A program made the position numbers and the translations under genes. Below the pieces are notes generated by a model that worked only from the letters and a program-made list of their open reading frames with translations, was not told the origin of the DNA and made no database searches. DNA of 10,230 nt from Candidatus Fonsibacter sp. (GTDB taxonomy: Bacteria; Pseudomonadota; Alphaproteobacteria; Pelagibacterales; Pelagibacteraceae): contig JALRAW010000041.1 in assembly GCA_023257975.1 (NCBI GenBank), forward strand, positions 1 to 10,230, written 5' to 3'. Below, piece by piece: positions 1 through 10,230 of the stretch; the stretch's first letter is position 1, and each line of letters opens with the position of its first letter.

Positions 1-713
1 TGTTCAATTTCAGCAGAAACGATTACTACTGTGTCATTTTTAAATTTATCTTTTATTTTTTGAGAATAATTATTACCTGAGCTAACGCTATTTTCATCTA
101 CATTGCAGACTAAGATTCTAGGTTTAGTTGATAGAATCCCTAGATTTTTAATTAACTTTTTATCGAATTTTTCTTCTAGTTTATCTGGACGAATGCCTTT
201 TTTTAAAGATTCATAAACATGTTCTAAAATTTCAAAAATATCTTTATTTAATTCATTATTTTTATTTTTTTTTTGAGATAATCTTTTTTCAACAGACTCT
301 AAATCAGAAATCATCATTTCAGTTTCTACTGTCTCTAGATCTCTTATAGGATCTACTGTTTTATTAACATTTTGTATTTCGCTTGAGTCAAAACATCTTA
401 ACATATGTATTACAGCATCAACCTCTCTTATATTTGCAAGAAATTTATTTCCTAAACCCTCACCTTTAGACGCACCAGCAACTAGTCCAGCAATATCTAC
501 AAATGTTATGTATGTTGGTATAATCTTTTCCGATTTTGCAATGTTTGAAAGTCTTTCTAACCTTTCATCAGGAACAGTAACAACACCGATGTTTGGTTCT
601 ATTGTGCAAAAAGGAAAGTTTGCTGCTTGTGCATTTTTAGATTTTGTTAGAGCATTAAATAGTGTTGATTTACCAACGTTTGGTAAGCCTACAATTCCAC
701 ATTTGAAACTCAT
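1..713 (-). CDS. ychF: Ribosome-binding ATPase/GTPase YchF (OLA1 family), 3' part missing
   Basis: This is the N-terminal 237 codons of a YchF/OLA1 P-loop NTPase, read leftwards from ATG at 713-711 until the window ends in frame. The protein begins MSFKCGIVGLPNVGKSTLF, which holds the G1/Walker A loop (GLPNVGKST). It then has the 'AANFPFCTIEPN' switch region, a 'DIAGLVAGASKGEGLGN' G3 segment and 'NVDE' at the G4 position, all typical of the family. YchF proteins are about 360 residues, so roughly 125 residues, including the C-terminal TGS domain, lie outside the window. The family binds ribosomes, prefers ATP over GTP and is linked to translation and stress responses. It sits 6 bp downstream of pth, a pairing common in proteobacteria, and is the last gene visible in the minus-strand run. 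No Shine-Dalgarno sequence is obvious. The identification is secure; the truncation is only the window edge. Confidence 0.95.
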   Translation of the reverse strand, partial: MSFKCGIVGLPNVGKSTLFNALTKSKNAQAANFPFCTIEPNIGVVTVPDERLERLSNIAKSEKIIPTYITFVDIAGLVAGASKGEGLGNKFLANIREVDAVIHMLRCFDSSEIQNVNKTVDPIRDLETVETEMMISDLESVEKRLSQKKNKNNELNKDIFEILEHVYESLKKGIRPDKLEEKFDKKLIKNLGILSTKPRILVCNVDENSVSSGNNYSQKIKDKFKNDTVVIVSAEIE

Positions 714-719
714 ATAGAC

Positions 720-1277
720 TTATTGATTACTTTTAGAAGTAAAATCGTCTAGTTTTTTTTCTATAAGAAGATTTATATTTTTAAATATTTTCTTAATAAC
801 TTGATCTATTATTACCTTTTCCTCTTCAGTAAAATCATTTAGGACATGTTTGTCTACTAATTCTTTGTCCCCAGGGTGACCTATACCAATTCTAATTCTA
901 TTATAATCAGTACCTATAGAGTCGTCTATTGATTTAATACCATTGTGACCACCGCTAGTGCCACCAATTTTAGTTTTTATTTTTCCAATTTCGATATCCA
1001 TGTCATCATGAAATACAAAAATATTATTCGTTTTAATTCTATGGTAGTCAGTTATTTCTCTAATACACATTCCAGAATTATTCATAAAAGTTAATGGCTT
1101 TACTACTATTACTTTATTATCTTGTACCTGACCGTTGGTTAATAGACCTTTAAATTTTGGTTTTTGTTTTGAAAGACCAAAATTTTTATTTAAAGCATCT
1201 ATAAGTTTGAATCCTACGTTATGTCTGTTGTTTGCATGTTTTGGATCTGGATTTCCTAACCCTGCAAATAATAACAT
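720..1277 (-). CDS. pth: Peptidyl-tRNA hydrolase (Pth)
   Basis: This 185-residue protein matches bacterial Pth in length. Pth releases the peptide from prematurely dropped peptidyl-tRNAs in the cytoplasm so that the tRNA can be reused. Family landmarks are visible: 'GLGNP' with N9, 'NRHNVGF' with the catalytic histidine H19, 'KPLTFMNNSG' at 60-69, 'FHDDMD' with the catalytic aspartate at D91, and 'GGTSGGHNGIKSI' with N112. These correspond to N10, H20, D93 and N114 of the E. coli enzyme. The usual Tyr and Thr of the YxxTRHN signature are His14 and Asn17 here, a mild deviation that leaves the catalytic residues intact. The gene lies between rplY (7-bp gap upstream) and ychF (6-bp gap downstream), so it is probably co-transcribed with both. 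This rplY-pth-ychF order is common in proteobacteria and groups translation maintenance functions. Confidence 0.96.
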   Translation of the reverse strand: MLLFAGLGNPDPKHANNRHNVGFKLIDALNKNFGLSKQKPKFKGLLTNGQVQDNKVIVVKPLTFMNNSGMCIREITDYHRIKTNNIFVFHDDMDIEIGKIKTKIGGTSGGHNGIKSIDDSIGTDYNRIRIGIGHPGDKELVDKHVLNDFTEEEKVIIDQVIKKIFKNINLLIEKKLDDFTSKSNQ

Positions 1278-1284
1278 TTAGGTG

Positions 1285-2055
1285 TTATTTCTTTTTATCC
1301 GCAGGCGCAGCAGCAGCAGCAGGTTTTTTAGCAGCATCGGGAGATTTCGCTGTTTCGCCCGGTTTAGCTTTTCCATCAGTAGCTTTAGCATCACCAGCAG
1401 CAGTAGCAGTTGTCGTACCTTCAGCTTGAGCAGCAGCATCACCTGCAGCAGCATCACCTGTAGCAGCGGCAGCTGGCTCAGGTTCTTTAACAACTGTAGG
1501 AGCTGCAATAGTTGCTATAGTAAAATCTCGATCAGTAATCGTGGGTTTTGAACCATCAGGTAATTTTACAGAGGATATGTGAATACTTTCATTCATTTCT
1601 TTATTAGCTAAATCAACTACTATTTCAGCAGGAATATTTTCAGCTGCACATCTTAACTCTATCTTTCTTCTTACTATGTTTAAAACTCCTCCTAATTTTA
1701 GTCCTGGACAATTTTCGTTGTTAATAAATTTCACAGGAATATTTACAGTTACTTTTGTTCCAGGCTTAATTTTTTGAAAATCTATGTGTATAGGCTCATT
1801 ATTTAGTGGATGAAAATTAATATCTTTAGTCAAAACCTTATGTTTTGATCCACCAATGCTCATTTCTATAACTGAGCTCATAAAGTTAGAAGACTCCAAC
1901 ATTTTTTTAATTGATAATTTTTTAACTGATAAAGGTAAATTTTGTTCTTTATCACCATATAAAATACCAGGGAGAAAACCTTCTAATCTTAATTTTTTAA
2001 GATCTCCTTTGGTTTTAAGTTTTCTTTCTGATGCTTCAAGCTTTAAATTTTCCAT
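1285..2055 (-). CDS. rplY: 50S ribosomal protein bL25, long CTC/TL5-type form with an Ala-rich tail
   Basis: This 256-residue protein is the two-domain (CTC/TL5) form of bL25, which binds 5S rRNA in the large ribosomal subunit. Residues 1 to about 95 are the 5S-binding domain: the start 'MENLKLEASERK', then 'GFLPGILYGD' at 27-35 and 'HPLNNEPIHIDF' at 82-93. Residues about 96-185 are the second beta-domain, including 'CPGLKLGGVLNIVRRKIEL'. Residues about 186-256 are a low-complexity tail rich in Ala, Pro, Lys, Asp, Thr and Gly, with Ala runs and a terminal KKK. Ala/Lys-rich tails are common in alphaproteobacterial bL25. The tail DNA is much richer in G and C than its surroundings and contains a perfect 15-bp tandem repeat. 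The tail creates long open frames on other strands and frames; they are not genes. The gene lies 56 bp after prs and 7 bp before pth. Confidence 0.95.
   Translation of the reverse strand: MENLKLEASERKLKTKGDLKKLRLEGFLPGILYGDKEQNLPLSVKKLSIKKMLESSNFMSSVIEMSIGGSKHKVLTKDINFHPLNNEPIHIDFQKIKPGTKVTVNIPVKFINNENCPGLKLGGVLNIVRRKIELRCAAENIPAEIVVDLANKEMNESIHISSVKLPDGSKPTITDRDFTIATIAAPTVVKEPEPAAAATGDAAAGDAAAQAEGTTTATAAGDAKATDGKAKPGETAKSPDAAKKPAAAAAPADKKK
1430..1459. repeat. Perfect 15-bp tandem duplication inside the bL25 tail
   Basis: The 15-mer GCAGCAGCATCACCT occurs twice back to back at 1430-1444 and 1445-1459. On the coding (minus) strand it specifies two GDAAA units at about residues 200-209 of bL25. 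As the unit is in frame, gain or loss of copies by slippage would change tail length without a frameshift. Degenerate GCA/GCAGC-type triplets extend on both sides. This is seen directly in the sequence; the slippage idea is inference. Confidence 0.9.
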
Positions 2056-2068
2056 ATAATAAAGATCG

Positions 2069-2101
2069 CTTGTTTTATATTAACTTCAAAAAAAAAACAA
2101 G
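2069..2101. other. Weak inverted repeat and poly-A/T tract between prs and rplY
   Basis: CTTGTTTT at 2069-2076 and AAAACAAG at 2094-2101 form an 8-bp inverted repeat with a 17-base loop that includes a run of ten A (ten T on the coding strand). The stem has only two G-C pairs and no T tract follows it, so it is a poor intrinsic terminator. It may be a processing or attenuation hairpin between prs and rplY, or chance in AT-rich DNA. The 56-bp gap is the largest in the lgt-to-ychF run, so a separate rplY promoter could lie here, but I see no convincing -35/-10 pair. Confidence 0.25.
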
Positions 2102-2111
2102 TTATTGTTAT

Positions 2112-3044
2112 TTATTTGAATAAGCTAGAAACTGAAGTTGATTGAGATATTCGTTTAATAGCTTCAGCAATTAACGGTGCAATACTAACCACCTCTATTT
2201 TTGAAACTCCTTTAATTTTTTTTGTATTATCAATAGTATCAGTGATAACAATTTTTTTCATTTTAGATTTTTTAATTTTATCGATAGATGAGCCTGTAAG
2301 AACACCGTGAACAACGTAACAATAAACTTCTTTTGCTCCTTTTTCTATTAGAGCATCAGCCGCGTTACAGATTGTTCCTCCACTATCAATTAAATCATCA
2401 ATTATAATACAAGATTTATTTTTTACCTCCCCAATAACATTCATAACTTCAGATTGACCTGGGCTTTCTCTTCTTTTATCAATGATTGCTAAACCAGCAT
2501 TCAATCGTTTACCAATAGCTCTTGCTCTTTCTACTCCTCCAACATCAGGCGCAACGCAAACAATATTTTTAGTGCCTATATTTTTTAATATGTGTTTTAA
2601 AAGAACTGGAGCTGCATATAAATTATCTACAGGAATATCAAAAAAACCTTGAATTTGATTTGCATGAAGATCCATAGTTAAAACTCTATTCGCTCCAGCG
2701 TTAGTAATTAAGTTTGCTACTAATTTTGCACTTATAGGAGATCTTGGTACAACTTTTCTATCTTGTCTTGCATAACCGTAGTAAGGAATGACCGCAGTTA
2801 TATTTTTTGCTGAAGATCTTCTTAAGGAATCAATACATATTAGCAACTCCATAATATTGTCGTTAGCAGGATAAGAAGTTGATTGTATTAAATATACATC
2901 GTTGCCTCGCATATTTTCTTTAATCTCAACGTACACTTCTGAATCAGCAAACCTTACAATTTCTCTTTGCGTTGGCTTTGTTTTTAAATATTTACAGATT
3001 TGATGGCTAAGGGAGATACTGCTTGTTCCAGATACAATCTTCAT
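2112..3044 (-). CDS. prs: Ribose-phosphate pyrophosphokinase (PRPP synthetase)
   Basis: This 310-residue protein is a class I PRPP synthetase of normal length. It transfers pyrophosphate from ATP to ribose 5-phosphate to give PRPP for purines, pyrimidines, histidine, tryptophan and NAD. Motifs in order are 'RFADSEVYVEI' at 31-41, 'YYGYARQDRK' at 88-97, the metal/ATP loop 'MDLHANQIQGFFD' at 124-136, 'VAPDVGGVERA' at 164-174, the flexible loop 'DKRRESPGQSEV' at 189-200, and the PRPP-binding P-loop 'DDLIDSGGT' at 216-224. The usual DTGGT is DSGGT, a conservative change. The start MKIVSGTSS aligns with the family N-terminus. The gene follows pgeF by 37 bp and precedes rplY by 56 bp on the same strand. 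A prs-rplY-pth-ychF order is frequent in alphaproteobacteria. Confidence 0.97.
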   Translation of the reverse strand: MKIVSGTSSISLSHQICKYLKTKPTQREIVRFADSEVYVEIKENMRGNDVYLIQSTSYPANDNIMELLICIDSLRRSSAKNITAVIPYYGYARQDRKVVPRSPISAKLVANLITNAGANRVLTMDLHANQIQGFFDIPVDNLYAAPVLLKHILKNIGTKNIVCVAPDVGGVERARAIGKRLNAGLAIIDKRRESPGQSEVMNVIGEVKNKSCIIIDDLIDSGGTICNAADALIEKGAKEVYCYVVHGVLTGSSIDKIKKSKMKKIVITDTIDNTKKIKGVSKIEVVSIAPLIAEAIKRISQSTSVSSLFK

Positions 3045-3081
3045 GAGATCTTTTTATATAATTTTACAATTAGTTAATCAA

Positions 3082-3846
3082 TTAATATCTGCAAATTACA
3101 GAGATACATCTTCCATAATCTGATTCATTATTATGTACAGATCTTCTGTAACTAAAAAAGTTTTTATAATCTCGATAAGTGTCCCTATTTATATTATCGA
3201 TATTTCTTTTGGGTATTCCTAGTTTTAAAAATTTTTCATTTACGAATAATCTTAGATTAAAGTAAAATTTCTTATTAATACTCATAAAATATTTTTTATA
3301 ATCGTAATTATTGATTTTAATATTTTTTACAAAGTCTTCTTTTACTTCATAATTTCTTTGTGCTATGCAAGGTCCAATTGCCACAATTAAGTTTGATATT
3401 ATTGATTTTTTTTGTTTAAATTTTTTTATTAGATTTTCAATAATTCCAGAATTAGCACCCCTCCATCCAGAATGAACAGCTGCCATTGTTTTATTTTCTT
3501 TATCAGCAACTAATATTGGTACGCAATCTGCAGTTAAAATTCCAAAAGAAAATTTTGGAAATGTAGTAATAATTCCATCAGCTTTGTATTTTTTTTTTAC
3601 TAAAAAATTATCAAAATTAATTATTTTATTGCTATGATACTGTTTTAACATAATTAATTTATTTGAGTTACAGCCAATTTTTTTTGAAACGATAATAATA
3701 TTTTTTTTAACGATTTTCTTTTTATCATTCGATCCCAATCCACAGTTAAGACTTTTATAAATCCCTTTTGAAAAACCATTTTTTCTTGTGAAAAAAAAAC
3801 TTTTTAAACCAGGTATTTTGTTAATTTTTTTAGAATAAAAAATCAT
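3082..3846 (-). CDS. pgeF: Peptidoglycan editing factor / purine nucleoside phosphorylase (PgeF/YfiH/LACC1 family)
   Basis: This 254-residue protein belongs to the DUF152 'multicopper polyphenol oxidase (laccase)' family. Members are now known to act on purine nucleosides (adenosine deaminase and phosphorolysis activities), and E. coli YfiH is called peptidoglycan editing factor. The Zn-binding set is visible: H71 in 'LKQYHSNK', C108 in 'TADCVP' and H125 in 'AVHSGWRGA'. 'AIGPCIAQRNYEV' (156-168) and the C-terminal 'FFSYRR' (230-235) are further family signatures. 'NRDTYRD' at 220-226 has Asp where many relatives have Cys in 'CTY', and the last motif is 'DYGR' rather than the common 'TGR'. Its ATG overlaps the preceding methyltransferase stop by one base (TAATG at 3848-3844), so translational coupling is likely. 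The substrate in this organism cannot be read from sequence. Confidence 0.9.
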   Translation of the reverse strand: MIFYSKKINKIPGLKSFFFTRKNGFSKGIYKSLNCGLGSNDKKKIVKKNIIIVSKKIGCNSNKLIMLKQYHSNKIINFDNFLVKKKYKADGIITTFPKFSFGILTADCVPILVADKENKTMAAVHSGWRGANSGIIENLIKKFKQKKSIISNLIVAIGPCIAQRNYEVKEDFVKNIKINNYDYKKYFMSINKKFYFNLRLFVNEKFLKLGIPKRNIDNINRDTYRDYKNFFSYRRSVHNNESDYGRCISVICRY

Positions 3847-4919
3847 TAAATAAATCCAAGATTAAATTTGCAATTTTTATTAGAAAAAGCTAATGCGTGA
3901 AAAGCTTCCCCCATTTCTTTTGGATTAACTAATTTATTAATACTTAGAATTAAGTCTTTACTAGTTATTAAATCTTGCTTTTTGATTATCTGATCTGCTC
4001 TTTCCATAATACCTAATTTTTGTAAAAAAAAATTTTGAGTTACGATACCAATATTTTGAATATTATTTTTTTTAAAAATACTCTTTAATATGTTGAAATT
4101 AATGTCAAAAGTAATATCGCAATCATTATATTCTTTTAATAAATCAACAACTCTATGTTTTTTTATCGCTCTAATAGTATTTTTTCCAATAGTGTTACAA
4201 TATCCATAATCAAACATTAAAAAAATTCCATTATTTTTTTTTATAATTTTTGATATCGAATTAAGATAAGTTTCAATTTTGATTGGGTATTCTATAATTT
4301 CACTTTTATGAATGTTGTAAAATTTAGAATATTTTTTAATTGAGTTATTATTAATTTTATTTTTGTAATAAGTAATTTTTTTTTTATTACCATTCTTAAA
4401 AGCAATACACTGTTCAAACCAATTATTATTTTCTTTATAAAATTGTTTTATAGGAAATGCGTCAAAAAATTCGTTTGCTAAAATTATTGTTGTATCTTGA
4501 TTAATTTTATTAATATTTTTTATCCAAATAATATTTTTAAAGTCACGTAAATTATATTTCTGAACTTTTATCAAATTTTCACTTTTTTCATGTAAATAAA
4601 TAGTAAATGTTGCATCGAAAGTTTTTATTTTTTGAATAGAGTTTATTATTTGCTTGATCATTAAGCCAGTTCCAGGACCTAATTCCAATATATTAATTTT
4701 TTTTGGTTTTTTTATATAAATCCAATAAGAAACAATCCATATAGATATCATTTCTGAAAAAATACTAGATATCATAGGAGACGTTATAAAATCTCCATCT
4801 CTTCCAAATATTTTGTTATTTTTATAATAACCAAATTTTTTATGGTATAATGCAATATTAATAAATTGATTTAATGGAATAAATTTTTTTTTATTTATTA
4901 ATTTTTCTATAGGATTCAT
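3846..4919 (-). CDS. Class I SAM-dependent methyltransferase, COG1565/NDUFAF7 (MidA) family
   Basis: This 357-residue protein has the layout of the COG1565/DUF185 family. It shows 'GRDGDFITSP' at 39-48, the SAM-binding glycine loop 'ILELGPGTG' at 77-85, 'LANEFFDAFPIKQF' at 147-160 and 'LMFDYGY' at 234-240. The mitochondrial member NDUFAF7 dimethylates an arginine of the complex I 49-kDa subunit during assembly. By homology this protein may modify NuoD or another respiratory complex I subunit, but that is inference. Its ATG lies inside the 3' end of lgt, giving a 29-bp overlap in a different frame, and its TAA overlaps the pgeF start by 1 bp, so the three genes are almost certainly translated from one mRNA. 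The lgt-COG1565-pgeF order recurs in alphaproteobacteria. The second half is Lys/Ile/Asn-rich, in keeping with the low-GC genome. Confidence 0.88.
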   Translation of the reverse strand: MNPIEKLINKKKFIPLNQFINIALYHKKFGYYKNNKIFGRDGDFITSPMISSIFSEMISIWIVSYWIYIKKPKKINILELGPGTGLMIKQIINSIQKIKTFDATFTIYLHEKSENLIKVQKYNLRDFKNIIWIKNINKINQDTTIILANEFFDAFPIKQFYKENNNWFEQCIAFKNGNKKKITYYKNKINNNSIKKYSKFYNIHKSEIIEYPIKIETYLNSISKIIKKNNGIFLMFDYGYCNTIGKNTIRAIKKHRVVDLLKEYNDCDITFDINFNILKSIFKKNNIQNIGIVTQNFFLQKLGIMERADQIIKKQDLITSKDLILSINKLVNPKEMGEAFHALAFSNKNCKFNLGFI

Positions 4920-5694
4920 TTTTGAATATTTTATATGTAATTATTCCAAAGATTAAAAAACATATACTAATACAAGTTCCTAAAGATAGATTAAAAATTA
5001 CATAGCCTATATGCTTATCTGGTTCCCTAAAAATTTCTGATATAATTCTGAATACAGAATAAAAAATTAAAAAATAACAAGACAATTCACCGTTAAATAA
5101 TTTTTTTTTATATTTTAATATAATATTTAATAATAAAAATAATATTAAACCCTCAAGAACAGCTTCATATAGTTGTGAAGGATGCCTTGGTTCCATGTCT
5201 ACTTTTGGAAAAATTACTCCATAATTAGAAAAAGTTTTTTTTCCGTATAATTCTCCATTTATAAAATTAGCAATTCTTCCAAGAAATATACCAATTGAAG
5301 CAACACAAACAATTATGTCAGTTAAAACGAGTATTTTGATTTTATTTTTTTTTGCAAAAATTATTGAAGCAATAAAAACACCGATTGAGCCTCCATGAAA
5401 AGACATCCCTCCTTGCCATAAAAAAAAGATTTCAATAGGATTATTTAAATAATAATTAAAATTATAGAATAAAATATATCCAATTCTACCTCCAAAAATA
5501 ATTCCTAAAATTAGATAAATCAAAAAATTATCAAAATTTTGAATATTAATTTTTTCTTTACTCCAGTGTTTTTTAATTAAATATTTCGCATAGTAAAAAC
5601 CAAACAATATACCGGCAATGTAAGCCAAAGAGTACCAACGAATTTCTAAAAAACTGAAATTAAAGATGACAGGATTTAGATTGTGAATAAACAT
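4891..5694 (-). CDS. lgt: Prolipoprotein diacylglyceryl transferase (Lgt)
   Basis: This 267-residue polytopic inner-membrane enzyme attaches diacylglycerol from phosphatidylglycerol to the lipobox cysteine of prelipoproteins. Family marks are 'IRWYSLAYIAG' at 18-28, 'GGRIGYILFYN' at 68-78, 'GGMSFHGGSIG' at 95-105 with the conserved H100, the Lgt signature 'GRIANFINGELYG' at 139-151 (R140, N143, N146, E148), 'RHPSQLYEA' at 170-178 and 'REPD' at 223-226. Hydrophobic stretches at about 19-40, 56-78, 87-113, 120-140, 175-195, 205-222 and 235-255 fit a seven-helix topology. It is the first gene of the minus-strand run that ends with ychF. Its 3' end overlaps the methyltransferase start by 29 bp, and upstream it diverges from the ubiK-like gene across 47 bp. 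Confidence 0.96.
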   Translation of the reverse strand: MFIHNLNPVIFNFSFLEIRWYSLAYIAGILFGFYYAKYLIKKHWSKEKINIQNFDNFLIYLILGIIFGGRIGYILFYNFNYYLNNPIEIFFLWQGGMSFHGGSIGVFIASIIFAKKNKIKILVLTDIIVCVASIGIFLGRIANFINGELYGKKTFSNYGVIFPKVDMEPRHPSQLYEAVLEGLILFLLLNIILKYKKKLFNGELSCYFLIFYSVFRIISEIFREPDKHIGYVIFNLSLGTCISICFLIFGIITYKIFKNESYRKINK

Positions 5695-5741
5695 TTAAAT
5701 AATCTTAGAATTATTTATAACTATATCAATAAGAAGAATAT
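5695..5741. promoter_or_regulatory. Divergent intergenic region between lgt and the ubiK-like gene
   Basis: Only 47 bp separate the two start codons, so both promoters must lie here or inside the opposite gene. The minus strand offers TATAGT (5725-5720) and TATAAA (5719-5714) as possible -10 boxes for lgt. The plus strand has TATAAC at 5716-5721. No good -35 element is seen for any of them. AAGAAGA at 5731-5737 lies four bases before the ubiK-like ATG and is one of the few Shine-Dalgarno-like sequences in the window. Confidence 0.35.
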
Positions 5742-5972
5742 ATGAATAATTATAAAAAAATTATTAATGATTTTGTAAATTTATTTCAAATAGGAATTTT
5801 AACTGCAAAAGATATCAAGCAAGAAATAAGTAATATTATTAAGTTTAAAAAAGAAAAAATAATGAACCATTTTAATAATTCATCTCAACAAGATTTAGAA
5901 GATTTAAAAAACAAAATAAAGAACCTAAACTTAGAAATAGAAAAGTTAAAAAAATTAGTTAGGAAAAGATAA
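5742..5972 (+). CDS. ubiK: UbiK/BMFP-family accessory protein (short coiled-coil protein)
   Basis: This 76-residue Lys/Asn/Ile-rich protein matches the BMFP/UbiK family in size and layout. An N-terminal amphipathic part with 'LFQIGILTAKDIKQEI' (14-29) is followed by a C-terminal coiled coil at about 50-74 ('DLEDLKNKIKNLNLEIEKL') ending in a basic LVRKR. In E. coli UbiK is a trimeric accessory factor for aerobic ubiquinone biosynthesis, and related proteins fuse membranes in vitro. A member of this family next to lgt is a recurring alphaproteobacterial arrangement and supports the call. It has an AAGAAGA Shine-Dalgarno-like site and is transcribed away from lgt. Its last 18 bp overlap, tail to tail, the end of envZ. 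The family is short and diverged, so the call rests on length, pattern and context; another small coiled-coil protein is possible. Confidence 0.72.
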   Translation: MNNYKKIINDFVNLFQIGILTAKDIKQEISNIIKFKKEKIMNHFNNSSQQDLEDLKNKIKNLNLEIEKLKKLVRKR

Positions 5973-7265
5973 AGAAACTCTTAGTCCTTTACCCTTTGGG
6001 TTATTTAATAGTTTTACAGTACCACCATGAGAATTAACAATATCCTCTACAATTGAAAGGCCTAATCCGACATTACTATCTTTGAGAGATCTTGATTTGT
6101 CGACTCTATAGAATGGTCTAAATACTTTTTCTTTATGTTCGTCAGCAATCCCAGGACCATCGTCATCAATATTAATTAAAATAGTTTTTTTTATTTTTTT
6201 ACAACTAATTGAAATATTTTCTGCATATTTTTGAGAATTATTTATAATGTTAGCAATACATCTTCTAATTAAATTTTTTCTTCCAGAAAATATTAAGTTT
6301 TTAGGACTTTTCATTTTAATATTTTTTTTAAAACTTTTATTAATTAAATTTTGAATTAATTGTACAATATTAAATTTCTCAACAGGCTGGGAATATTGAT
6401 TACTAGCAAAATCAAGATATTCGTTAATCATTTTTTCCATTTCGATAATCTCTTCTTTTAGTGAATTTAATTTTTGATTTTTGTTTAAAAGTTCGATTTG
6501 TAATTTTAATCTTGTTAGTGGTGTTTTTAGATCATGACTAATACCAGATAACATCGCTGTTCTTTGACTAATATGTTTAAGAATTCTTCTTTTCATTTTT
6601 TCAAACTCATAAGAGGCCTGTCTAATTTCAAGAGCTCCTGATACTTTAAAATCACTATCAAATTGCCCTTTGCCAAATCTTTCTGCCGCTTGAGAAAGAA
6701 GAACGATAGGTTTAATTTGATTACGTAGAAAAATTATTGAAATAAAAAGAAATATTAACGAAGGTACTGTAATCCAAAGTGCAAATATTCTTCCAGAAGT
6801 AGATCTTATTTTTGTTTTAGGTATTAAAAATTCAATAACTTCATTCTTATTAAGTAGTACCAATACTTGAACGAACGAACTATTAAATCTGACATTATGC
6901 CAGTATGGATTTTTTATTTTATCTGAAAATTCTTCCAGAACAATTTTGTCATACAAACTGTACCATTTTACTGTTTCGGTAGACGGAAGCTGCTGAGTTT
7001 CTTTTTTGATTGAAATTATTATGCCACTTTTATCTTTGTAAATATTAATTAATTCATTACTTTTGTTTCTTTGTTTATATTCGGGGTAGAGGGCTAAGAA
7101 TGTATTTATTTCGTTAGCAGCAGATCTAACTAACCCTCTATTTGTTTTGTACCAGATGCTATCAAAAAAAACACCTCCCACAACAATTTGAATAAGTATT
7201 ATTGGGGCTATTACAATTAGTAATGATCTAAAAAGTAAAGTTCTAGGAAATATTTTTCTTAGCAT
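5955..7265 (-). CDS. envZ: EnvZ-type sensor histidine kinase
   Basis: This 436-residue membrane-bound kinase should phosphorylate the adjacent OmpR-type regulator. A first membrane helix lies at about 13-34, a periplasmic sensor segment of about 120 residues follows, and a second helix lies at about 160-180. A HAMP linker (about 181-232) contains 'RNQIKPIVLLSQAAERFGKG'. The HisKA dimerization/phosphoacceptor domain has 'GISHDLKTPLTRLKLQIEL' with H244. The ATPase domain has the N-box 'CIANIINNSQKYA' (336-348), G1 'DDDGPGI' (367-373), an F-box near 'FRPFYRVD' (382-389) and G2 'VGLGLSIVEDI' (399-409). All catalytic boxes are intact and the length fits EnvZ (about 450). The start codon is one base after the ompR stop, implying coupled translation. 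The 3' end overlaps the ubiK-like gene by 18 bp, convergently. The stimulus cannot be inferred from sequence. Confidence 0.93.
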   Translation of the reverse strand: MLRKIFPRTLLFRSLLIVIAPIILIQIVVGGVFFDSIWYKTNRGLVRSAANEINTFLALYPEYKQRNKSNELINIYKDKSGIIISIKKETQQLPSTETVKWYSLYDKIVLEEFSDKIKNPYWHNVRFNSSFVQVLVLLNKNEVIEFLIPKTKIRSTSGRIFALWITVPSLIFLFISIIFLRNQIKPIVLLSQAAERFGKGQFDSDFKVSGALEIRQASYEFEKMKRRILKHISQRTAMLSGISHDLKTPLTRLKLQIELLNKNQKLNSLKEEIIEMEKMINEYLDFASNQYSQPVEKFNIVQLIQNLINKSFKKNIKMKSPKNLIFSGRKNLIRRCIANIINNSQKYAENISISCKKIKKTILINIDDDGPGIADEHKEKVFRPFYRVDKSRSLKDSNVGLGLSIVEDIVNSHGGTVKLLNNPKGKGLRVSLSFPN

Positions 7266-7266
7266 T

Positions 7267-7947
7267 TCAATCTAGCCACAAAACATAGCCTGTGCCACGG
7301 ACTGTTTGCAAGTATTTTGGATTTTTTGGATCTGGTTCGATCTTCTGTCTTAGTCTTGTAACTAAAACATCTATACTTCGTTCTTGTGTTAAGTTTGTAA
7401 TCTTTGATATTTCTTCCCTAGAAAATATTTTTCCAGCAGAACTAATCATGTTTTCTAGTAGAATTTTTTCACTTGCATTAATTTTTATTATTTTTTTATC
7501 TTTTAGGATTTCCATTTTTTTTATATTAATACTTGCTTTTCCTATCTTAATCGAAGTTATTATATGTTTGTCTTTTTTAATTCTTTTAATAACGTTTTTA
7601 ATTCTTAACAACAGCTCTTTCGGTTCAAAAGGTTTTGGTAAATAATCTTCTGCTCCCAATTCTAATCCTCTCACCCTGTCCTCAGCTTCTCCTTTAGCTG
7701 TCAGCAGAATTATTGGTAAGTCAATTTTTTCCCTAATCTCTTTTGTAAGTTGTAAACCGTCCTTGCCAGGCATCATAATATCAACAATTGCCAGATCAAA
7801 TTTAACAATTTTTAATTTTTCCTCTGCATCAGATGCGTTAATTGCAGTTGATACTAAGAAATTATTACCTTTCAAATATTGTTTTAATAAATCTCTTATT
7901 TTGTCATCATCATCAACAATTAAAATATGTATTTTTGAATTATCCAT
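7267..7947 (-). CDS. ompR: OmpR/PetR-type response regulator
   Basis: This 226-residue DNA-binding regulator has a receiver domain (about 5-120) and an OmpR/PhoB winged helix (about 130-226). Receiver residues are the acidic pocket D12/D13 in 'IVDDDDK', phospho-acceptor D56 in 'IVDIMMPGKDG', T83 in 'LLTAKG' and K105 in 'LPKPF'. The effector domain carries 'FSREEISKITN' and 'RSIDVLVTRLRQKIEPDP...YLQTVRGTGYVL', the classical recognition helix and wing. The gene sits between a MarR gene (its ATG overlaps the marR stop by 8 bp) and envZ (1-bp gap), the order of alphaproteobacterial petP-petR-envZ loci. In Rhodobacter capsulatus petR and petP were linked to expression of cytochrome bc1 genes; in other groups OmpR answers osmotic stress. 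Which regulon applies here is unknown. Confidence 0.93.
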   Translation of the reverse strand: MDNSKIHILIVDDDDKIRDLLKQYLKGNNFLVSTAINASDAEEKLKIVKFDLAIVDIMMPGKDGLQLTKEIREKIDLPIILLTAKGEAEDRVRGLELGAEDYLPKPFEPKELLLRIKNVIKRIKKDKHIITSIKIGKASINIKKMEILKDKKIIKINASEKILLENMISSAGKIFSREEISKITNLTQERSIDVLVTRLRQKIEPDPKNPKYLQTVRGTGYVLWLD

Positions 7948-8377
7948 GAATTATTTTTTTCATTATTGATTTAAAATTTGAAACTTCATCTGAAGTTGAA
8001 TTTTTGAGTGCATTAATTATTCTTTTTTTTTGCTTATTAAATATTTCATCGCATAGTTTAATGCCTTTTTCAGTTAGAACTAATTCTCTTTGTCTACCGT
8101 CTTTTATTCCTTTTTTTTGTGATATAATATTTTTTTTTATTAGATCTTGTAGAACTCTACTTAAACTTTGTTTGGTAATTTTTAATTTTCTTAATATATC
8201 AGCAATGCTAATGTTGGGATTTCCCTCTATTATGCAAAGGAGCCTATGATGAGCTCTGCCAAAAGAATTTTTTTTTAGTACTTCGTGTGGGTCTGAATAT
8301 GAATCTATATATACTTGAAAAATAAGTTCTATAATTTCTTTTAAACTTTTTTCTCTTAAATATAAAAGATCTTTCAT
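7940..8377 (-). CDS. petP: MarR-family transcriptional regulator, PetP-like
   Basis: This 145-residue winged-helix protein has the MarR layout. Flanking dimerization helices lie at about 8-26 and 108-142. The helix-turn-helix is at about 57-84 ('SIADILRKLKITKQSLSRVLQDLIKKN'), and the basic wing 'GIKDGRQRELVLTEKG' (90-105) contains the D-x-R pair (D93, R95). The segment 'FGRAHHRLLCII' at 39-50 resembles PetP proteins, the MarR members encoded with PetR in alphaproteobacteria. The TAA overlaps the ompR start by 8 bp, so both are read from one mRNA. A perfect TATAAT on the coding strand lies 6 bases before the ATG, suggesting a leaderless transcript. It diverges from ilvE, with a dyad between them that could be its operator. 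The MarR fold is sure; the petP assignment rests on context and the FGRAHHR stretch. Confidence 0.85.
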   Translation of the reverse strand: MKDLLYLREKSLKEIIELIFQVYIDSYSDPHEVLKKNSFGRAHHRLLCIIEGNPNISIADILRKLKITKQSLSRVLQDLIKKNIISQKKGIKDGRQRELVLTEKGIKLCDEIFNKQKKRIINALKNSTSDEVSNFKSIMKKIIHG

Positions 8378-8383
8378 TTTAAA

Positions 8384-8412
8384 ATTATATTGTATGTCAG
8401 TTTTATTGACAT
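8384..8412 (-). promoter_or_regulatory. Predicted marR-ompR-envZ promoter (leaderless start)
   Basis: Read on the minus strand, ATGTCA (8412-8407) matches four of six -35 consensus bases. A 17-bp spacer follows, then TATAAT (8389-8384), a perfect -10. Transcription would begin at about 8377-8378, at the A of the marR ATG, so the message would have little or no leader. This fits the absence of a Shine-Dalgarno sequence before marR. It is a prediction by eye; AT-rich DNA yields -10-like boxes by chance, but the paired spacing makes this one better than most. Confidence 0.45.
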
Positions 8413-8413
8413 A
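8393..8413. promoter_or_regulatory. Dyad, candidate MarR operator, with ilvE -35 box
   Basis: TATGTCA (8393-8399) and TGACATA (8407-8413) are a perfect 7-bp inverted repeat with a 7-base spacer, so centres are 14 bp apart, plausible for a MarR dimer. The right arm contains TTGACA (8406-8411), a consensus -35 on the plus strand for ilvE, and overlaps the predicted -35 of marR. A weaker -10 for ilvE could be TACCAA at 8429-8434 (17-bp spacer). A second pair, ATTGTAT (8389-8395) and ATACAAT (8434-8440), brackets the same region. Binding here would affect both divergent genes. The repeat is seen directly; its use by this MarR protein is inference. Confidence 0.45.
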
Positions 8414-8467
8414 TCTACTTTACTTATTTACCAATACAATTTTAATTATTTACTACTTAAAACTTTA

Positions 8468-9352
8468 ATGGATCCAATCCCTTTTGATAAAAGATCAGGA
8501 AAAATTTGGTACAATGGTAAATTAGTAGACTGGAAAGAAGCTAATTTACATATTCTTAGCCACGGACTTCATTATGCTAGTTGTGTGTTTGAAGGTGAGC
8601 GTGTTTATAACGGAAAAATTTTTAAATTAAGAGAGCATACAGATAGATTAATTCATTCGGCCAACAGAATGGGCATGAAGATTCCTTATTCCGCAGAAGA
8701 AATAGATAGAGCATGTAATGAAACTATTTCTGTGCAAAATGTTAAGAATGGCTATGTAAGACCAGTTGTGTGGAGAGGAAGTGAAATGATGGCTATATCT
8801 GCGCAAAAAAGTCAGATTCATTTAGCAATAGCAACATGGGAATGGGGATCTTACTTCGATCCGCAAATTAAAATAAAAGGAATTAGATTAGCTATCTCTA
8901 AATGGAAAAAACCTGCACCAGATTCTATCCCTTGGGACACTAAGGCCTCCGGTTTGTATATGATTTCAACTTTGTCCAAGCACGAAGCAGAAAAAAATGG
9001 TTATCATGATGCTTTAATGATGGATTATCAAGGCAATATTGCAGAAGCGACGGGAGCAAATATTTTTTTTATAAATATTAAAAATAATGAAATTCACACT
9101 CCAATAGCAGACTCCTTCTTAGATGGAATTACCAGAAGATCAATTATAGAAATTGCAAAACAACTTCAGATTAAAGTTTTAGAAAGAAAAATAAAAATTG
9201 ATGAACTCAATAAATTTGATGGTTGTTTTTTAACAGGTACCGCAGCAGAGGTAACTCCCGTATCTCAAATTGGAGAAGTTAAGTTTAAGGTAGTTGATAT
9301 GATTAAAAAGTTAGATGATAATTATTCAAAGTTAATTAATAAAAATAATTAA
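8468..9352 (+). CDS. ilvE: Branched-chain amino acid aminotransferase (class IV, PLP)
   Basis: From ATG at 8468 this is 294 residues, the usual length. It catalyses the last step of valine, leucine and isoleucine synthesis (and the first step of breakdown) using glutamate as amino donor. Marks are 'HGLHYASCVFEGERVY' at 32-47, 'VRPVVWRG' at 97-104, the PLP lysine K159 in 'DTKASGLYM', 'NGYHDALMMDYQGNIAEATG' at 177-196 with the conserved Glu193, and 'FLDGITRRSI' at 217-226 in the phosphate-binding region. The frame is open to an ATG at 8390, but the extra 26 residues are unlike the family N-terminus and would cover the promoter and dyad, so 8468 is preferred. No Shine-Dalgarno sequence is seen. 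It diverges from marR and converges on pgsA with a 4-bp overlap. An ilvE neighbour of petP/petR is common in alphaproteobacteria. Confidence 0.94.
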   Translation: MDPIPFDKRSGKIWYNGKLVDWKEANLHILSHGLHYASCVFEGERVYNGKIFKLREHTDRLIHSANRMGMKIPYSAEEIDRACNETISVQNVKNGYVRPVVWRGSEMMAISAQKSQIHLAIATWEWGSYFDPQIKIKGIRLAISKWKKPAPDSIPWDTKASGLYMISTLSKHEAEKNGYHDALMMDYQGNIAEATGANIFFINIKNNEIHTPIADSFLDGITRRSIIEIAKQLQIKVLERKIKIDELNKFDGCFLTGTAAEVTPVSQIGEVKFKVVDMIKKLDDNYSKLINKNN

Positions 9353-9696
9353 TCAATAAGATTTATTCCTCTTCTTAAATAAGCGTATCCTGTCCAAAGT
9401 GTTAATATTGCAGCCATCCAAAGCAAATATATTCCCAATTGAATTCCATAATTAAATAAAAATTTATCACCACTGTTACCAGCTAATAAAATAGAAATAG
9501 CAATCATTTGTATTATAGTTTTTCCTTTTGATAAATTTGTAACAGGGATATAAATTTGTGCTTTTGCTAAAAATTCTCTAAGTCCTGAAATTAGAATTTC
9601 TCTTGTTATTATTATAATCGCAGCCACTACATGAATATCTTTAATGGTTTGCGCCATTATTAAGAGTGCAAGTGCTGTTGCAACTAAAACTTTATC
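9349..9696 (-). CDS. pgsA: CDP-diacylglycerol-glycerol-3-phosphate 3-phosphatidyltransferase, 5' part missing (broken by a junction)
   Basis: This is the C-terminal part of PgsA, the membrane enzyme that makes phosphatidylglycerophosphate. The genuine sequence begins at 'DKVLVATALALLIMAQTIKD' and runs through 'IITREILISGLREFLAK' (the family's REI.IS.LRE signature), 'SKGKTIIQM' and a last membrane helix with 'ILTLWTGYAYL'. Most of the DGxxARxxxxxxxxGxxxDxxxD catalytic motif is absent; only its final Asp, in 'DK', remains. About 115 of an expected 185 residues are present. Upstream of about 9693 the frame gives unrelated residues (LFPRIL) and a TGA at 9723-9721, so this is a break rather than a diverged N-terminus. 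An ATG at 9657 would give a 102-residue product, but it lies inside a helix and is not a credible start. The end overlaps the ilvE end by 4 bp. The break coincides with the start of a parB fragment. Confidence 0.85.
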   Translation of the reverse strand, partial: DKVLVATALALLIMAQTIKDIHVVAAIIIITREILISGLREFLAKAQIYIPVTNLSKGKTIIQMIAISILLAGNSGDKFLFNYGIQLGIYLLWMAAILTLWTGYAYLRRGINLID

Positions 9697-9916
9697 TAAA
9701 ATTCTAGGAAAAAGCAGAAGTCATATTGCAAATACATTAAGGCTTGCAGGACTTCCTGAAGAGATACAAAAAATGATTGCAGATGGATTATTAACATCTG
9801 GACATGCAAGATGTTTGGTGAATGTTCCAGATAACATTAAACTTGCAAAAATCATCGTTAATAAAAATCTTTCCGTTCGGCAGGCCGAGTTTTTAGTTAA
9901 AAAAGAACAAGTTTTT
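9695..9916 (+). pseudogene. parB: Internal fragment of parB (ParB/Spo0J helix-turn-helix region)
   Basis: The plus-strand frame from about 9695 reads 'SKILGKSRSHIANTLRLAGLPEEI', then 'DGLLTSGHARCLVNV' and 'NLSVRQAEFLVKK'. This is the central DNA-binding region of chromosomal ParB, with the helix-turn-helix 'KSRSHIANTLRL', the 'GHAR' motif and 'SVRQAE'. ParB binds parS and spreads with CTP to segregate the chromosome. Neither the N-terminal CTPase domain with its arginine motif nor the C-terminal dimerization domain is present. The frame is open from an ATG at 9644 to 10021, but residues before and after this core come from antisense pgsA and antisense membrane-protein DNA, so the longer frame is a chimera. 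The right limit is fuzzy (about 9905-9930). It is inserted opposite in strand to both flanking gene pieces and is non-functional as it stands. A sequencing or amplification chimera is the likeliest source. Confidence 0.82.
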
Positions 9917-9924
9917 GGCACATT

Positions 9925-10155
9925 AAAAAAAATTAATCCTAAAAAGGCAATGATTGGACCAAAAACATCCTTCACCACCGTAAAACAAATAAACAATCCC
10001 CAAATTCCACTGACTACATAAATTAAGATGGAAATGAGAAAAAGGGGACTTAAACGTATTCTTTTAAATCTTGGGTAAAAAGTTTCTTCACGGTCAATTC
10101 TTTCAGCTTCAACCTCTTTAACTTCAATAATCTCTTTATCGTTCTTCTCATTCAT
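9925..10155 (-). CDS. Small membrane protein of unknown function, 3' part missing (broken by a junction)
   Basis: From ATG at 10155 about 77 residues look genuine. A charged Glu/Lys-rich N-terminus ('EIIEVKEVEAERIDREE', 9-25) leads into 'FYPRFKRIRLSP', then a hydrophobic helix at about 37-60 and the beginning of a second from about 65 ('FGPIIAFLGLIFF'). After about residue 77 the frame stays open to 9721 only because it reads the antisense strand of the parB fragment; residues such as 'KTCSFLTKNSACRTE' are not part of the original protein. The true C-terminus is therefore lost. I do not recognise the family. The short acidic cytoplasmic head followed by paired helices suggests a small inner-membrane protein. 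The upstream gene ends 26 bp before it on the same strand, so an operon is possible in the source genome. Confidence 0.6.
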
Positions 10156-10181
10156 GGATTTGATATTTTAAATTATTAAAA

Positions 10182-10229
10182 TTATCTTAAAATTTTTGAT
10201 AAAAACTCTTTAGCTCGTGCTGATAAGGA
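10182..10229 (-). CDS. C-terminal end of an unidentified gene cut by the window edge
   Basis: Entering from the right edge on the minus strand, an open frame reads SLSARAKEFLSKILR and stops at TAA (10184-10182). The 15 residues look like an amphipathic Ala/Lys/Leu C-terminal helix typical of a soluble enzyme, and the spacing of 26 bp to the next ATG fits an operon. This is too short to name; it could also be a chance open frame. Confidence 0.35.
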   Translation of the reverse strand, partial: SLSARAKEFLSKILR

Positions 10230-10230
10230 T

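Follow-up and report, generated by a model that had tools for sequence, protein, structure and literature searches.

The window analysed here is one entire contig (C14, 10,230 bp) of a draft Candidatus Fonsibacter genome (G000; 191 contigs, 824,516 bp, 70.7% complete, 2.4% contamination). Its low GC, small size and gene content suggest a SAR11-type alphaproteobacterium. Positions 1–9703 are collinear with the closed genome of a relative, G003, in one alignment at 85% identity, and likewise form one unbroken alignment at 89% with another relative, G010. The stretch from 1 to 9697 is taken as the genuine contig body on the basis of these alignments, and the final 533 bp make up the chimeric part. 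The body ends inside pgsA, of which the 3′ part is present on the minus strand (9349–9697, about residues 68–183; Pfam CDP-OH_P_transf, 4.6e-08). The gene is cut at a first junction, and its protein match, covering residues 64–183, reaches slightly beyond the join.

Junction 1 (9687–9697, AAACTTTATCT) consists of 11 bases common to pgsA and parB. On its right side, all 11 bases are found in the parB gene of G003 and the preceding base differs; on its left side, the pgsA sequence of another contig of the same draft, C120, is identical up to 9697 and the later bases differ. Beyond it lies a plus-strand parB fragment (9698–9924) that lies in the ParB helix-turn-helix domain (Pfam HTH_ParB, 1.1e-21) and corresponds to about residues 152–227 of 288, or 148–231 counting both overlaps. 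This fragment is identical to G003 parB at 213 of 227 positions, its protein match extends over residues 146–232, and with both overlaps included (9687–9936, 250 bp) it aligns to that gene at 94%. Junction 2 (9925–9936, AAAAAAAATTAA) is formed by 12 bases common to parB and a small membrane-protein gene, and G003 matches 12 of 12 in each of the two genes. For both overlaps, as measured, G003 stands in for at least one of the parents.

The third piece is the 5′ part of the membrane-protein gene, on the minus strand (9937–10155). An intact 123-residue homologue occurs in G003, to whose gene positions 9925–10137 are 93.9% identical, and homologues are found in eight of 12 relatives. No Pfam or NCBIfam family matched the 123-residue G003 protein; the full-length G003 relatives of the other two genes matched TIGR00560 (pgsA) and TIGR00180 (parB_part). 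The identity profile suggests a possible third switch within the membrane-protein gene, since across 10105–10137 the sequence changes from G003/G009-like (94%) to G004/G011-like; either recombination in nature or one more false join may account for this. The contig closes with the minus-strand 3′ end of a gene (10156–10230; 69 of 75 positions identical to G004, and as many to G011) that, from its translation, we take to encode the ATP-binding protein of an ABC transporter. Such a gene also lies upstream of the membrane-protein gene in G004 and G011, and that place is presumably taken by a quinone-oxidoreductase-like gene in G003 and G009.

The sequences matching these pieces are widely dispersed in the closed G003 genome, where the counterpart of the C14 body lies at ~810–820 kb, parB at ~1,109 kb and the membrane-protein gene at ~603 kb. 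Loci that are hundreds of kb apart in the relative are thus joined within ~250 bp in C14. An earlier note, made from the sequence alone, had described a three-way chimera of pgsA, parB and a membrane-protein gene. The G003 alignments confirm it, with full-length pgsA and parB and the intact membrane-protein gene all present at separate loci. The first switch, which had been placed at 9693–9697, falls inside the shared bases, and the second, placed at 9905–9930, meets its overlap at the end of that range. At random joins between three 20-kb stretches of G003, at least 11 shared bases occur with a frequency of 2.5e-5, so the overlaps are not due to chance, and we infer that they guided the joining.

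So, did parB and membrane-gene fragments move into pgsA in a living cell? The pieces are clean and coding, and their closest matches are in the same genus, which counts in favour of such a rearrangement. However, the missing pgsA half exists. It sits on C120 (residues 1 to about 76, with a protein match of residues 1–94 that reaches slightly beyond the join), and C14 and C120 adjoin in G003. The statement that no piece has its missing half nearby thus holds within the window, and fails for pgsA once the rest of the assembly is included. Window positions 9672–9697 have an exact copy at C120 5600–5625, a 26-mer, after which C120 continues into a fragment of PNPase (matched in Pfam and NCBIfam). 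Among its 80 best matches, the closest to this fragment are from actinobacterial MAGs (Acidimicrobium, Acidimicrobiaceae and acIV), at 94–95% at the protein level. On C120, the pgsA alignment ends at 5623–5625 and the PNPase alignment starts at 5615–5616, which gives an overlap of at most 11 bases (5615–5625). The head of C120 (1–305), which presumably encodes an acyl-carrier-like protein, also departs from the syntenic region.

The pgsA gene is therefore interrupted by two unrelated continuations only 26 bp apart, and the simplest reading of this is an intact pgsA in the real genome. From these alignments, what truly comes after 9697 is most probably the remaining part of pgsA, as on C120. 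It had been argued that a real rearrangement would have destroyed pgsA and copied part of parB. Loss of pgsA is not supported, given that both halves are present on contigs that neighbour each other in G003. Copying of parB is not supported either, in that the assembly, at 70.7% completeness, holds one parB match and no second that could have been the source.

The joins also appear to be private to this draft. A degenerate pattern for junction 1 matched one of 397 family genomes, G000 itself, and none of the other 396. It found no stretch in genome_contigs or viral_contigs, where records near the genome itself may be absent, and the junction 2 pattern had no match in viral_contigs. The genus alignment set comprised 13 genomes, the draft and 12 relatives; L196 (G006), without a match, was left out of the parB and membrane-gene alignments. 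In the 12 relatives, no alignment crosses either junction and none extends more than 7 bases beyond an overlap: the pgsA alignment ends at 9696–9703 in eight of them and at 9645 in G006, and the farthest parB alignment end is at 9943 (G008). Recurrence of the junctions in independently sequenced relatives, which had been named as a sign of a real event, was accordingly not found, either for junction 1 in the 396 genomes or in the alignments.

Insertion or transposition would be expected to leave terminal repeats or a mobile gene, and a junction shared with an independent genome; none of these was found. Direct or inverted repeats of at least 12 bp are absent from 9600–10060 (shorter target duplications would escape this search), no tRNA was found in the window, and no transposase family occurs among the proteins scanned, in agreement with the original description of the locus. 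Against phage families, three scanned proteins gave no more than a weak match resembling ParB and, for pgsA, a family without a name. Similar faults on other contigs of the assembly, one of them involving another phylum (below), weigh in the same direction. With joins that were not found elsewhere and both pgsA halves present, we reject a real rearrangement, which we consider extremely improbable. Its specific form strains credibility to a similar degree: a natural cell whose pgsA is interrupted by microhomology-joined fragments with no mobile element, and which survives with another phospholipid synthase.

Contigs of the bin overlap one another at 91, 96 and 97% identity; for example, the starts of C14 (L023 1–372) and C106 (L041 1–372) overlap and are 97.3% identical over 372 bp. 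Strains also differ inside C14: the body is closer to G004 (91%) than to G003 (85%), and the parB piece is closer to G003 (94%) than to G004 (83%). Contig C28 (L056) joins a stretch that is 99.2% G003-like, presumably the uvrB region, to a stretch of 82.5% identity whose G003 counterpart lies in a distant region. Because of the overlapping contigs and this 99.2% stretch, the bin does not represent one clonal cell, and it reads as a metagenome bin of several strains rather than a single-cell genome. By the same alignments, C28 is a further within-genus chimera of this assembly. Its join overlap is at most 11 bases (2219–2229); this and the C120 overlap are upper bounds, as each join has one parent represented solely by relatives 81–87% alike.

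These observations bear on single-cell multiple displacement amplification (MDA), which the earlier note had put forward, and in which phi29 polymerase would have switched template twice and the product would have been assembled faithfully. MDA chimeras show changes of orientation and short shared bases, as do both C14 joins, and overlaps of 2–21 nt are reported in one study (PMC1855051), a range that includes 11 and 12 nt. However, among the chimeras from one MDA-amplified E. coli cell in the same study, 337 of 475 were inversions joining sites <10 kb apart, and joins >10 kb apart had complementary bases in 27.6–34.8% (PMC1855051). A second report gives overlaps mostly of 5–8 nt with a peak at 6 nt (PMC4595205), so that published joins, as far as these two studies go, mostly span shorter distances and share fewer bases than those of C14. 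The C14 pieces are hundreds of kb apart in G003 rather than inversions within 10 kb, C120 joins two phyla, and the bin holds several strains rather than deriving from a single cell. Few chimeras are described in MDA-amplified metagenomes (PMC10945365), and in single amplified genomes 1.72% of reads were reported to be chimeric and mostly not carried into contigs (PMC6162917). Given the strain mixture, the distances and the overlap lengths, we disfavour single-cell MDA and regard it as unlikely.

We inspected 42 of the 191 G000 contigs for similar faults, of which 29 were readable and 13 were masked (N). The comparison used 18 readable control contigs from two assemblies only (G004 and G009), two of the 18 cut at 20 kb; C14, C120, C106 and several control contigs were picked for matching, not at random. 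A high-GC end was defined as a stretch of at least 46% GC near a contig end. Such ends occur in 9 of 29 G000 contigs, themselves of about 25–33% GC, versus 0 of 18 controls (Fisher p = 0.008). C14 is outside these nine because its tail comes from the same genus. Non-syntenic tails of at least 100 bp occur at 16 of 34 testable ends versus 2 of 18 in controls (p = 0.014), or at 14 of 32 ends (p = 0.026) once L038 is excluded, whose match to the reference reaches just 70%. An end was testable if it had an alignment of at least 300 bp with the reference running on, a condition that left out 8 of the 29 contigs. The C14 3′ end scored zero in this count, since the false piece there has an alignment to G004. 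Unaligned tails also occur at two of 18 control ends, so some of the G000 tails may reflect naturally differing gene content; this applies most to the AT-rich tails of C5 and C25.

The tails span 17–65% GC and encode different genes. Family scans of six tails or heads recovered pieces of carA, lepB, PNPase and H+-pyrophosphatase above a Pfam cut-off, a recJ piece below the cut-offs, and in one case only a weak MFS match. The C120 tail is the only one traced to another phylum; the others were assessed by GC content and alignment, with family scans for the six. A second break resembles that of C14 and C120 at pgsA: C9 (L052 5243–5365) and C18 (L054 3232–3442), which adjoin in G003, share an 84-bp overlap at 96% identity, past which they continue into separate non-syntenic tails (39 bp on C9 and 127 bp on C18).

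Because junction 1 was found only in G000, neither join is bridged by an alignment in the 12 genus relatives, and the chimera sits at a contig end and has counterparts on other contigs, we conclude that it is almost certainly a technical artefact, as the earlier note had also proposed, and from the sequence evidence we give this a probability of about 0.96 whether it was made in the library or by the assembler. A metagenome chimera should unite pieces that lie apart in relatives through a join unique to one assembly, recur within that assembly more often than in controls, and involve more than one strain or organism, and each of these was found here. Assembled chimeras between unrelated organisms are described in PMC7417191. 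As in such short-read metagenome contigs, the unrelated segments in G000 lie at contig ends, involve more than one organism and a mixture of strains, and are confined to one assembly. Unlike them, C14 has a double join within 250 bp, with 11–12 shared bases and pieces from a single genus.

At which stage could the chimera have been made? The contigs C21 (L055 1–141) and C31 (L057 1–141) share an exact 141-bp overlap, which is what de Bruijn assembly with that k would leave and likely a sign of the assembler k-mer size, and seven non-syntenic tails are 127–142 bp long (L033, L036, L045, L048, L054, L057 and L060). A k of 141 is the last default k of MEGAHIT, which uses small k for its local assembly. 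Local assembly at contig ends with a very small k fits both the 11–12 bp overlaps and the 141-bp overlap. Alternatively, an amplified metagenome library could already have contained chimeric molecules, made by template switching in PCR or bulk MDA and passed on in its reads, which the assembler would merely have followed. The variable GC content and genes of the tails, with one from another phylum, are in keeping with such molecules, as are the seven tails of about one k-mer, a length to be expected if contigs are linked to other paths of the graph by a few chimeric reads. However, the 11 and 12 bp overlaps look more like a minimum-overlap rule than a spread of lengths, although only these two joins could be measured from both sides. 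We consider the library origin a real but lesser possibility and the main alternative; the reading that we prefer is that contig ends were falsely extended while the metagenome was assembled.

The final 533 bp of C14 are best explained as a false tail, in which short sequences from elsewhere in the same genus were attached in turn, first the parB fragment and then the membrane-gene fragment, via matches of 11–12 bases. This could have happened during library making or, more likely, during assembly. The bin probably derives from short metagenomic reads assembled on a de Bruijn graph with k = 141, and low coverage or a tangle within pgsA may have set off the extension. As a technical fault, the chimera tells nothing of the living bacterium, and its relevance is to quality control only. 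Gene fusions, broken essential genes and gene transfers at the contig ends of this bin are not trustworthy. Although the completeness and contamination figures of G000 are modest, almost a third of its readable sampled contigs have a foreign-looking, high-GC end.

Within the genuine body of C14, positions 1251–1550 form a local GC peak of 54%. It corresponds to the alanine-rich end of the protein encoded at 1285–2055, which presumably resembles ribosomal protein L25/Ctc. The peak is natural, because the matching stretch of G004 (L075) also peaks, at 52% GC.
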